In this document: piece after piece, positions 18,082-20,751 of the stretch
How the letters are laid out: the number at the start of each line of letters is the position of its first letter
How positions within the stretch are numbered: the stretch's first letter is position 1
IMG/VR virus record: IMGVR_UViG_3300030060_002989
Location: 1 to 21,449 of that record
DNA: 21,449 nucleotides
Source: a virus
Reading direction: 5' to 3' (one strand)
Position numbers and translations under genes: made by a program
Notes under the pieces: generated by a model
The model's database searches: none
Told to the model about the DNA's origin: nothing
What the model saw: only the letters and a program-made list of their open reading frames with translations

Positions 18082-18908
18082 TGGCAACATACTTAGAAGA
18101 AGCAGAATTATTATATCCAGATTTAACTGGAACATTACTACAGTTGTTTGCAGCTGCATGGGCTAAGTCTGGTAATCCACAAACTGCTATACAAGAAGTA
18201 AGACAAACAGATGAATATAAAGCGGAGTTTCCTGGTAACTATAATCCAGAGACTGGACAAGTTAGATACAATGAAACTACGTATAAAGCATTAGAACAAT
18301 CTTATATAGGAACTCTTGCTGAATATGGTATTCCAGCACAAACATCTAAAGTATTATTAGCAGATAGATTTGTTAGTTTATTAGAAGGAGAAGTCTCCGC
18401 TAGAGAATTTCAACAAAGAGTATCTTCTGCTTATGAAGGTATCGTAGATAATATTCAAGGAGTTCAAAACTTCTTTTCAACTAATTACAATGTGGACCTA
18501 ACTCCTGAAGCTATATTCATGGGAGCATTGGACCCATCAGTTGGTGAAGAAATTATATCTGGAAGAATTACAGCTGCACAAATAGGTGGTGAAGCAGCAA
18601 GAGCAGGATTTACATTAACAAGAACTGAAGCAGAGAATCTTAGAAAAGCTGGTCTTACTCAACAACAAGCAAGACAACTTTATACAGCTGCACAAAGAGA
18701 ACTACCAAGACTTAGAGATATACAATTAAGACAAGACAGTGGTGAACAACAATTAACAATAGAAGAGTTTACACAAGCTGTTGTATTCCAGGACCCAGAC
18801 CAATTAGAAAACATTAGAAGATTAGAAGCAGAAGAAGAATCAATGTTCTCACCTGTTGGTGGTGCCGCAAGAGAAGGTGGCAGAGTTACTGGATTAGTTG
18901 AGGGATAA
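18081..18908 (+). CDS. Hypothetical virion-block protein, 275 aa
   Basis: A soluble, mostly helical, Ala/Gln/Glu-rich protein. Its parts are MATYLEEAELLYPDLTGTLL, a central YIGTLAEYGIPAQTSKVLLA, then DPSVGEEIISGRITAAQIGG and a Gln/Arg-rich helix pair (GLTQQQARQLYTAAQRELPR). It ends in a Gly/Arg tail (GGAAREGGRVTGLVEG). It has no recognisable enzyme or membrane motif. The start overlaps the stop of the 643-residue gene, and it is the last gene before the hairpin and promoter cluster at 18905-19331. A minor or ejected virion protein by position. Confidence 0.75.
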   Translation: MATYLEEAELLYPDLTGTLLQLFAAAWAKSGNPQTAIQEVRQTDEYKAEFPGNYNPETGQVRYNETTYKALEQSYIGTLAEYGIPAQTSKVLLADRFVSLLEGEVSAREFQQRVSSAYEGIVDNIQGVQNFFSTNYNVDLTPEAIFMGALDPSVGEEIISGRITAAQIGGEAARAGFTLTRTEAENLRKAGLTQQQARQLYTAAQRELPRLRDIQLRQDSGEQQLTIEEFTQAVVFQDPDQLENIRRLEAEEESMFSPVGGAAREGGRVTGLVEG

Positions 18909-18959
18909 CAAAAACCCCAACCAGGAAAACACAAATGGTTGAGGTCTTTGTTTTACTTC
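18905..18959 (-). ncRNA. Candidate leftward ~55-nt hairpin RNA
   Basis: Arms 18907-18923 and 18936-18952 are complementary over 17 positions around a 12-nt loop. Read rightward, the RNA has two mismatches (18917/18942 C-A and 18913/18946 A-C). Read leftward, both become G-U wobbles, so only the leftward RNA is fully paired. A leftward GGGGTTTTTGTT follows the stem, as in an intrinsic terminator, and promoter copy 4 points at it with a predicted start near 18959. No ORF fits. It may also act as a rightward terminator for the upstream operon, weaker because of the mismatches. Confidence 0.45.
18907..18956 (+). terminator. Possible rightward terminator of the ejection-gene block
   Basis: The hairpin described for the leftward RNA begins immediately before the end of the 275-residue gene (stop at 18906-18908). 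Read rightward, the core stem CCCCAACCA/TGGTTGAGG (one mismatch) is followed by GTCTTTGTTTT, a moderately T-rich tail. It could stop most rightward transcription there, with a new start at 19010 or 19116 serving the capsid block. Confidence 0.45.
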
Positions 18960-18964
18960 TATAG

Positions 18965-18993
18965 ATTAGACTCAAATAATAAAAAAAGGTTAC
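18965..18993 (-). promoter_or_regulatory. Leftward promoter copy 4 (TGTAACC-N17-GTCTAAT)
   Basis: Minus strand: ATGTAACC, 17 bases after the last C, TCTAAT, with a run of nine A bases just upstream (plus-strand T run 18998-19006). It is the same motif as the three early-operon copies, yet no gene lies to its left in its orientation, only the hairpin at 18905-18959. TCTAAT is followed by CTATAG and not by an ATG. It therefore looks like a promoter for a short RNA, or a binding site whose target protein also controls the early operon. Confidence 0.5.
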
Positions 18994-19009
18994 ATAGTTT
19001 TTTTTTGTG

Positions 19010-19015
19010 TATAAT
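19010..19015 (+). promoter_or_regulatory. -10 box TATAAT for the small-RNA-like unit
   Basis: A perfect TATAAT followed by TAATA and an ATG at 19021, giving a predicted transcription start near 19020-19022. A T run lies about 4-12 bases upstream, and no good TTGACA -35 is visible at 16-18 bp. It shares TATAATTAA with the box at 19116. It diverges from promoter copy 4 with overlapping upstream DNA. Confidence 0.4.
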
Positions 19016-19020
19016 TAATA

Positions 19021-19110
19021 ATGAGGAAATACTCTAGCAATAGAGAATATAACCTTCCTTTCGTGTACGTATAAAAATAGTGGGGATAAAACCCCACTAT
19101 TTTATTTTTA
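19021..19110 (+). ncRNA. Candidate regulatory small RNA with anti-Shine-Dalgarno stretch, ~90 nt
   Basis: From the predicted start the RNA has a short 5' end and a hairpin CTCTA-GCAA-TAGAG (19032-19045, GNRA-type tetraloop). An unpaired stretch holds AACCTTCCTTTC (19051-19062), and a perfect intrinsic terminator follows (19074-19110). Hairpin, unpaired seed, terminator is a classical small-RNA layout. The seed is complementary over 9-10 bases to AAGGAAGGT, the ribosome-binding site repeated in the leftward early operon, suggesting translational repression in trans. A 17-codon reading frame also fits from ATG 19021 (MRKYSSNREYNLPFVYV, stop TAA 19072-19074), in the leaderless position. The transcript may be dual-function, or the peptide may be chance. 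Confidence 0.5.
19074..19110 (+). terminator. Intrinsic terminator, perfect 12-bp stem
   Basis: AAAATAGTGGGG (19074-19085), a 6-nt loop, and CCCCACTATTTT (19092-19103) pair perfectly, followed by ATTTTTATAAG. The T-rich tail is on the rightward side, so it terminates rightward transcripts, ending the small-RNA unit just before the next TATAAT. The A-rich start means it may also work leftward. Confidence 0.8.
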
Positions 19111-19115
19111 TAAGA

Positions 19116-19121
19116 TATAAT
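19116..19121 (+). promoter_or_regulatory. -10 box TATAAT for the scaffold/capsid unit
   Basis: TATAATTAA at 19116-19124 sits just downstream of the terminator and about 210 bases before the scaffold start. The predicted transcription start is near 19128, at the first base of a hairpin. No -35 match is seen at the usual distance because that region is the terminator stem. The shared TATAATTAA with 19010 may be a late-promoter feature. Confidence 0.4.
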
Positions 19122-19127
19122 TAAAGT

Positions 19128-19331
19128 ATCGGATTGCGGCTTTCTCCGATTAAAAATGGATGCTGCACCTCCAGCTTATTTCAAGCGTGTAAGTTGAGTA
19201 TTAAAATCGCTGGTATCTGAATAGCCAAGAGTGGCTGACAATTTTCGTTATTCTTAAATTATTTTATTTGTCGCCTATCGCATTATATTCCCCAGGGTAA
19301 TGCAGTTAGTAGAAACTGGGAGAGGAGAGAT
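19128..19331 (+). promoter_or_regulatory. Structured 5' leader of the scaffold/capsid operon
   Basis: About 200 non-coding bases with more G+C than the surroundings and several hairpins. These are ATCGGA/TCCGAT (19128-19150), CCAGC/GCTGG (19171-19213) enclosing TTCAA/TTGAG (19180-19198), and GAATA/TATTC (19219-19253) enclosing GCCA-AGAG-TGGC. Two pairs of alternatives exclude each other. GCTG 19162-19165 competes with GCTGG for CCAGC, and near the start codon CAGTT/AACTG (19303-19318) competes with CCCAG/CTGGG (19291-19320). The strong ribosome-binding site GGAGAGGAGA follows at once. This could be a regulatory leader or an RNA-stability element; I match no known riboswitch class. Confidence 0.45.
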
Positions 19332-19799
19332 ATGGAAAATATAGAAGAAAATACAGTAGAAGAAACGCAGGAAGATAACAACGCTATCAAGAATATGCGA
19401 GAACGCATTAAAGAACTTGAAGGTGTTGAGAAGGAATATAAATCTGTACAGATGGACACAGCCATTAAAGATGCAGGTTTTGACCCAGCTTCTGGACAAG
19501 GCAAAGCACTAAAGGACCTTTACAAAGGCGACTTGGAAGTAGATGCGATAAAGGCATTTGCTGCTGAACAATATGGATGGGGTGAAGAAGCTCCAGCAGT
19601 TCAGGAACAAGAAGCACAAAAGGCAAGAGTAGTAACTAGCCAAGATAGTTTAGATGCTGTAGCACAAGCTAGTGTTCCAGTTGAACCAGCTAATGTAAAC
19701 GACCAGATTTCACAAGCTATGCAAGATGGTGATTGGCAAAAGAGTTCAGCTCTCAAAGCAGAAAAATTAAAAGCACTAATGAACGACAAGTTAAATTAA
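19332..19799 (+). CDS. Capsid scaffold protein, 155 aa
   Basis: An acidic, highly helical, Gln/Ala-rich protein. The coiled-coil-like N-terminus (EENTVEETQEDNNAIKNMRE, IKELEGVEKEYKSVQ) is followed by AIKDAGFDPASGQGKALKDL, an Ala/Glu/Gln-rich middle and the basic C-terminal helix KSSALKAEKLKALMNDKLN. Acidic helical body with a basic C-terminal capsid-binding helix, placed directly before the major capsid gene, is the usual scaffold pattern; proteins of this kind are lost from the mature head. The ribosome-binding site GGAGAGGAGA is the best in the window, as expected for a highly made protein. The stop is 13 bases before the capsid ATG. Confidence 0.8.
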   Translation: MENIEENTVEETQEDNNAIKNMRERIKELEGVEKEYKSVQMDTAIKDAGFDPASGQGKALKDLYKGDLEVDAIKAFAAEQYGWGEEAPAVQEQEAQKARVVTSQDSLDAVAQASVPVEPANVNDQISQAMQDGDWQKSSALKAEKLKALMNDKLN

Positions 19800-19812
19800 A
19801 GGAGATTAAAAA

Positions 19813-20751
19813 ATGGGTGCAGTATCAGGAATGGGTGATTCGTATGATTTACCCAATTACGTAGGAGAGTTATTTAATATAACTCCAAATGATACGCCAT
19901 TTCTTTCTGCTATTGGTGGAATGACTGGAGGTAAATCAGTTACCTCTAAACAATTCACCTGGCAAACAGTTGACAATGCAGCCGCAGCTCAAACAGCAGC
20001 TGTAGAAGGTGCAGACCCAACATATGCAGAGAGAAGCAGAAGTGAAGTAATTAACGTTACTCAAATTATGCAATATGGTGTAAACGTATCATACACAAAA
20101 CAAGCAGCAACAGGAAACCTTTCTGGACAAGCTATTATAGGAAATCAACCAGTTCAAGATGAATTGGCTTTCCAATTAGATATGGCTTTAAAGAGAGCAG
20201 CTAGAGATATAGAGTTCTCTTTCTTGCAAGGTACTTATGTTGCAGATACAAACGTAACAACAGCAAGAAAAACAAGAGGTATGTTAGCAGCTATCTCAAC
20301 TAACGAGAGAGCAGCTGCTGGAGGAGCATTAGCACAAGGAGATGTTAATACTATTCTAAAATCTATGGCAGATTCAGGAGCTCCATTTGAGCAACCTGTA
20401 ATGTTTGCTAACGCCTTTCAAAAGCAAAAACTATCATCTATCTATTCAAGTGCATTATCACTTGCACCAAGAGATAGAAACTATGGTGGTGTTAATATCA
20501 ACACTATAGAAACTGACTTTGGTGAGATTGGTATTGTCTATAGCAGACACGTACCAGCAGATGATATTGTAATTGCTGACCTTGCATTTTGTAAGCCAGT
20601 TTTCTTGGATATTCCAGGAAAAGGACACTTCTTTGTTGAGCCACTAGCTCAATCAGGAGCAGCTTACAAGTATCAAGTCTATGGAGAAATTGGATTAGAA
20701 TATGGTCCAGAACAATTCCACGGCAAAATTACAAACCTAGCTACTTCCTAA
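19813..20751 (+). CDS. Major capsid protein, SU10/DUF5309-type, 312 aa
   Basis: The shell-forming protein. The N-terminus has SYDLPNYVGELFNITPNDTP and FLSAIGGMTGG, a hallmark of the family described for phage SU10 and its relatives. Next come KQFTWQTVDNAAAAQTAAVE, EVINVTQIMQYGVNVSYTKQ, and an axial-domain-like DIEFSFLQGTYVADTNVTTA. The C-terminus has GIVYSRHVPADDIVIADLAF and EIGLEYGPEQFHGKITNLAT. It lacks a long N-terminal delta domain, fitting a separate scaffold. AAAGGAG precedes the ATG. The stop lies within a 14-bp palindrome (20745-20758). Confidence 0.9.
   Translation: MGAVSGMGDSYDLPNYVGELFNITPNDTPFLSAIGGMTGGKSVTSKQFTWQTVDNAAAAQTAAVEGADPTYAERSRSEVINVTQIMQYGVNVSYTKQAATGNLSGQAIIGNQPVQDELAFQLDMALKRAARDIEFSFLQGTYVADTNVTTARKTRGMLAAISTNERAAAGGALAQGDVNTILKSMADSGAPFEQPVMFANAFQKQKLSSIYSSALSLAPRDRNYGGVNINTIETDFGEIGIVYSRHVPADDIVIADLAFCKPVFLDIPGKGHFFVEPLAQSGAAYKYQVYGEIGLEYGPEQFHGKITNLATS

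Follow-up and report, generated by a model that had tools for sequence, protein, structure and literature searches.

The phage T4 protein RegA, which recognises an A+U-rich sequence near the AUG, competes against the ribosome for the initiation regions of about 30 phage mRNAs, among them those of early and middle genes (PMC3014915). Among bacterial regulators, the S. aureus small RNAs RNAIII and RsaE pair through C-rich UCCC/UCCCC seeds with the Shine-Dalgarno sites of several mRNAs, and one seed of RsaE is normally held in a stem-loop (PMC9217828). A 2025 review of small RNAs in phages presents lambda OOP, P22 sar and P1 c4 as antisense RNAs directed at single phage genes, sar by blocking translation initiation, and lambda PreS and VP882 VpdS as trans-acting, Hfq-dependent RNAs with host transcripts among their targets (PMC12197685). 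Those phage small RNAs with a known function for which we found descriptions target single phage genes or host genes; neither a keyword search of that review nor searches of open-access full text yielded an RNA that controls early genes through a Shine-Dalgarno site common to them.

Here we analyse a unit, carried by uncultured phages known only from environmental contigs, whose RNA apparently matches ribosome-binding sites throughout an early gene set. We propose, with a probability of roughly two in three, that this RNA pairs with early Shine-Dalgarno sites and blocks them, as an RNA version of T4 RegA. The likeness, which is not one of membership, lies in a phage factor directed at many phage initiation regions, with predicted targets here that are early and not late; RegA, however, is a protein, whereas the RNA would pair with the Shine-Dalgarno site. 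RNAIII and RsaE work in a similar manner to that predicted here, but they are host-encoded, have metabolic and virulence targets and carry seeds that fit ordinary G-rich sites; the unit's seed ACCUUCCUUUCGUG has no UCCC, which places its RNA outside that group, and it fits a special site spelling common to one temporal class of phage genes. With OOP, sar and c4 it would share being a phage-encoded small RNA that regulates phage genes, but at least 17 kb separate the unit from its predicted targets, of which there would be many. Trans action would be common to it and to PreS and VpdS, for which the keyword search of the review showed no shared early Shine-Dalgarno regulon (PMC12197685). A small RNA that blocks Shine-Dalgarno sites is a known kind of regulator, and what would be unusual here is the regulon. 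If the proposal is true, these phages would pass from the early to the late programme post-transcriptionally, with an RNA as the switch, and the spelling of the Shine-Dalgarno site would itself mark a temporal gene class.

The window, by which we mean the whole 21.4-kb stretch of DNA analysed, is an IMG/VR viral fragment. Genes were classed as early or late by strand and gene content: the minus strand of 1-2292 holds the early genes, and the rightward genes comprise terminase, a portal-like protein, very long virion proteins, a gene in scaffold position (19332) and the capsid gene (19813). DNA searches among named phages found none similar to the window and no near relative. The capsid protein is ∼45% identical to those of Mycobacterium and Propionibacterium phages, and the closest terminase and portal matches are from Streptomyces phages; because of these affinities a low-GC actinobacterial host is plausible. 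WhiB, sought as a host marker, had 0 matches in 8 contigs.

The RNA unit and its conservation

The unit occupies 19010-19110 on the plus strand. It opens with a -10 box, TATAAT (19010-19015), which all units have in this form or with a slight change, as in TATACT. The promoter scan returned none at the unit, with no consensus -35 at normal spacing; GTTACA can be read 15 nt 5' of the -10 box. Judging by the spacing to this box, the RNA would start at about 19021-19023. A short copy of the target, AGGA (19024-19027), lies near its 5' end and is followed by a hairpin (19029-19048) with a GCAA loop at 19037-19040. Next comes the CCTTCC stretch, read as AACCTTCCTTTCGTG at 19051-19065, with the seed ACCTTCCTTTCGTG (19052-19065), which is the complement of AAGGAAGGT. 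The unit closes with a strong intrinsic terminator (19074-19103), a 12-bp stem and then a TTTTT-rich tail. Right after the unit stands the -10 box of a separate promoter for the capsid operon (19116-19121, plus strand), kept in nearly all relatives. The -10 box, the GCAA-capped hairpin and the terminator had all been described in an earlier note on this DNA and were found as described. That note had also taken the CCTTCC stretch to be unpaired; in predicted folds of the window's RNA and of six relatives it is instead partly paired with the RNA's own 5' AGGA/GG segment.

A conserved unit at this place in related phages had been proposed as a check, and one was found. A covariance model built from 16 units recovered full copies, scoring 95-117 bits, in 20 related phages (the window and 19 other contigs), one copy in each and no second copy elsewhere in the genomes, always directly before the conserved capsid promoter and ∼800 nt 5' of the capsid ORF. 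The model gave nothing above 21 bits in unit-less relatives, and matches of up to 33 bits represent the opposite strand of the terminator region in the same unit-bearing phages. Units came from a subset of capsid relatives and from pattern scans of all viral contigs; the seed is identical in 16/16 aligned units, some of which were retrieved by a seed-containing pattern and the capsid-derived ones without it, and no variant seed turned up when all relatives were searched with the model. Exact-pattern matches in bacterial genomes (L103-L105) and in the viral records L090 and L098 were taken as chance, as the surrounding sequence is unlike the unit. Rfam release 15 has no family that matches the unit at its curated cut-off, the best being STnc400 with 25.3 bits against a cut-off of 80.

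Across the 16 units, pairing in the hairpin is maintained by compensatory changes, with both sides altered at 5 of its 8 pairs. Terminator pairs are kept in 98% of cells. The covariation score of the whole structure is 0.203, against 0.072 in shuffles, and 0/500 shuffles reached it. Mean identity is 63% in the 5' part and hairpin, 91% in the terminator and 100% in the seed, whereas identity to the window at fourfold-degenerate sites of the adjacent gene is no more than 50-66% outside the closest phage, which has 98%. Since the hairpin covaries and the seed is invariant against this divergence, the unit is almost certainly a conserved, constrained RNA gene and not a chance promoter-terminator pair.

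Early ribosome-binding sites as predicted targets

The seed is complementary to sites on the minus strand in front of six early genes. The longest matches, of 10 nt, are to AAAGGAAGGT at 423-430, 1359-1366 and 1692-1699, which precede the genes starting at 416, 1353 and 1685. Matches of 9 nt are made with the Shine-Dalgarno site AAGGAAGGT (47-54) of the gene starting at 41 and with AAAGGAAGG, which contains GGAAGG at 1016-1021, of the gene starting at 1009; the site AGGAAGGT (1204-1211) of the gene starting at 1198 matches over 8 nt. Thus 6 of the 8 early starts examined offer 8-10 contiguous Watson-Crick bases to the seed, with duplexes of -13.0 to -15.9 kcal/mol, whereas 0 of the 11 late starts in the window offer more than 7, in line with what had been claimed for both classes. 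AGGAAGGT occurs 6 times in the window, five times as a minus-strand early Shine-Dalgarno site and once as the unit's own complement (19052-19059); in shuffles its mean count was 0.88 and never reached 6. A further claim, that the early sites pair worse with the 16S tail than with this RNA, stood in part: the RNA is favoured by 4-5 kcal/mol at three of the six sites and by 1.6 at one, and the two partners are about equal at the remaining two. Judged by sequence, then, the unit has several features of trans-acting base-pairing small RNAs: it is short, has its own promoter and intrinsic terminator in 20 phages, combines conserved secondary structure with a constrained seed that is partly paired in predictions, and is complementary to several distant initiation regions above chance.

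We compared start sites in 34 phage contigs, both unit-bearing and unit-less. GGAAGG precedes 77/226 early-strand starts in unit-bearing phages and 4/188 in their unit-less relatives, against 6/362 and 3/310 late-strand starts respectively; these counts are approximate because the gene calls came from a simple script, and raw word counts, which are independent of gene calls, give the same ranking. With one genome per clade the early figures are 38/108 and 2/150, and by gene family 22/56 and 2/111. About two thirds of the early starts in unit-bearing phages are without GGAAGG. The commonest early 7-mer is AGGAAGG in unit-bearing phages and AGGAGGA in unit-less ones, and the late genes of both groups alike use AGGAGA-like sites. 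The main test proposed in the earlier note, that unit and early sites should occur together, was thus borne out, and none of the contigs compared showed the contrary case of early sites kept without CCTTCC; co-variation of seed and target cannot be scored because the seed is invariant.

Pairing energies agree with the counts. In unit-bearing phages the mean duplex with the seed is -11.2 kcal/mol at early sites and -7.0 at late sites, a contrast of -4.2 kcal/mol; for permuted seeds the average contrast is -0.6, and 0/300 reach -4.2. The 16S anti-Shine-Dalgarno sequence itself prefers early sites by 3.0 kcal/mol (a contrast of -3.0), so that part of the seed's contrast reflects stronger early sites. 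Early sites of unit-bearing phages nevertheless pair better on average with the RNA than with the 16S tail (-10.4), whereas the 16S tail is the better partner for late sites and for early sites in unit-less phages. The seed CCUUCCUUUC differs from a mimic of the 16S tail CACCUCCUUUCU by one extra base.

Portal, terminase, the 275-aa neighbour of the unit and the 642-aa gene that precedes it place all unit-bearing phages in a single clade, so the co-occurrence of unit and GGAAGG sites is nearly one historical contrast. In the capsid tree the unit is scattered and at least 10 changes are required; the scaffold tree requires 4. Set against the backbone clade, this scatter indicates that capsid modules have been swapped between clades, the unit staying with the backbone and its GGAAGG early sites; in G001 these sites lie ∼17 kb from the unit, across the structural genes. 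We regard this linkage of the unit with the backbone and with distant sites as suggestive. One well-shared early gene, weakly similar to Rad52/annealing proteins, carries GGAAGG in 7/11 unit-bearing phages (two separate lineages) and in 0/11 unit-less ones, a comparison that amounts to only 2 independent pairs. The window and the unit-less L003 have identical capsid proteins (module 19332-20751), and the portal and terminase trees keep their clades apart.

Proposed mechanism and alternative readings

In the proposed mechanism, a small RNA of ∼85-90 nt would be made from the unit's own promoter and ended at its own terminator. Its invariant ACCUUCCUU(UCGUG) would act in trans, base-pairing with Shine-Dalgarno sites of the form AAGGAAGGU in front of many early genes; the paired sites would be hidden from the ribosome and early protein synthesis would be lowered as a group, with late genes that have AGGAGA-type sites left untouched. 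Until a better partner is met, the RNA's 5' AGGA would cover part of the seed, and targets would have to displace this stand-in. Because pairing would fall on the Shine-Dalgarno site, a few bases 5' of the start codon, competition with the 30S subunit is expected. We infer transcription, timing, pairing in the cell and repression from these features. It is quite likely that the early ribosome-binding sites are the RNA's main targets, and it probably represses them: the invariant stretch is the exact complement of an unusual ribosome-binding site that is almost confined to the early genes of these phages, so a joint shut-off of many early genes by the RNA is probable. To a fuller version we give even odds: the early genes of this clade would carry a private Shine-Dalgarno spelling, AAGGAAGGT, which one small RNA reads, closing much of the early programme and leaving host-type and late sites open, as RegA's RNA counterpart with a co-evolved site code.

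The resemblance of the seed to the 16S tail CACCUCCUUUC could also mean that its complementarity to early sites is a by-product of the likeness between Shine-Dalgarno and anti-Shine-Dalgarno sequences, with GGAAGG an independent trait of the clade and the conserved RNA serving another role, such as binding a protein or insulating the capsid operon by a promoter-terminator arrangement in front of it. Unit and GGAAGG sites do mark the same backbone clade, and the terminator sequence is strongly conserved too. An insulator, however, needs no invariant 14-nt single-stranded block, and the seed has exactly the extra base that separates GGAAGG from GGAGG. The failure of every permuted seed (0/300) to match the early-late contrast, together with GGAAGG on the shared early gene in two separate unit-bearing lineages and not in unit-less relatives, further argues against this reading, which we consider unlikely. 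We hold it quite unlikely that the RNA mainly targets host transcripts, for example a host Shine-Dalgarno group, with the early-site match secondary: the seed fits GGAAGG rather than GGAGG-type sites, the best partners of the 16S tail, and the unit-bearing phages' own early genes are enriched in GGAAGG. On the other side, many phage small RNAs of known role act on host genes, according to the review (PMC12197685), and complementarity was scored on phage genes.

Pairing alone leaves the direction of the effect unset, and the RNA's own AGGA mimics the target, so one might suppose that pairing with early leaders raises their expression or stability. The paired stretch is, however, the ribosome-binding site, where pairing normally blocks the 30S subunit, as with RNAIII and RsaE (PMC9217828), and activation seems very improbable to us. 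The window also has an ATG-led open frame 6 nt after the -10 box, which could make the locus a leaderless 17-codon peptide gene (MRKYSSNREYNLPFVYV, 19021-19074) or a chance promoter-terminator arrangement with no RNA gene. We rejected the peptide, since the ATG and frame are missing in most relatives, which keep hairpin and seed; the chance of either is close to negligible.

Neighbouring promoters and further elements

The motif TGTAACC-N16/17-GTCTAA, which resembles promoters of ECF sigma factors, occurs in the window on the minus strand at 2297-2327, 1716-1746, 446-476 and 18965-18994. Unit-bearing phages have 50 copies, all on the early strand, and unit-less phages have 0. As no phage-encoded sigma factor was found (no match to Sigma70 region 2 or 4_2 in 14 contigs), a host ECF sigma factor may drive the early genes of unit-bearing phages. 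Many of these early promoters have a GGAAGG site close behind, often ∼5-25 nt after the GTCTAA box, so that the site would sit in a short leader. G002, G013 and G016 are without the ECF-like early promoters of the other unit-bearing phages, and in them unit and GGAAGG sites are both kept.

The leftward copy at 18965-18994 (TGTAACC-N16-GTCTAAT), just upstream of the unit, has no gene behind it in the window. In most unit-bearing phages such a promoter overlaps the 5' portion of the RNA promoter, and the window and a few other phages retain it despite the lack of a leftward gene behind it; on these grounds it may help to set when the RNA is made. In the window (18908-18994) it is directed into the last part of the virion operon, and the motif is intact, also in the L035 and L089 contexts.

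The early genes of the unit-less contigs G026, G030, G035 and G036 favour another common site, AGGAGGA(AT); no matching RNA for AGGAGGA-type early sites was found in unit-less phages, the candidates looking like opposite-strand Shine-Dalgarno sites. Avoidance of AAGGAAGG in late coding sequence was set aside as evidence for the RNA, all Shine-Dalgarno-like words tested being avoided in both groups. Words of this kind, GGAGG for example, are strongly depleted inside late genes, with 94 observed in unit-bearing phages and 322 expected from synonymous shuffles.

The last five bases of the seed (TCGTG) are unexplained by the Shine-Dalgarno match. They are invariant, and the ACGTA that follows is nearly so (19061-19073 in the window, and the relatives' units); neither is needed for that match. 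As ACGT is self-complementary, an RNA dimer or a second contact is possible, and ACGU-ACGU contacts between the RNA and early leaders show a weak excess (8/65 vs 5/115).

The leader of the scaffold/capsid operon, ∼200 nt long (19130-19331, plus strand), is a second, separate structured RNA with compensatory changes. It has no match in Rfam and is conserved in unit-bearing and unit-less phages alike, L185 and L186 included. A pseudoknot (CATTAT..CCCCAG..ATAATG..CTGGG) is likely in this leader, and its CUCC stretch can base-pair with GGAG, the Shine-Dalgarno site of the scaffold gene itself.
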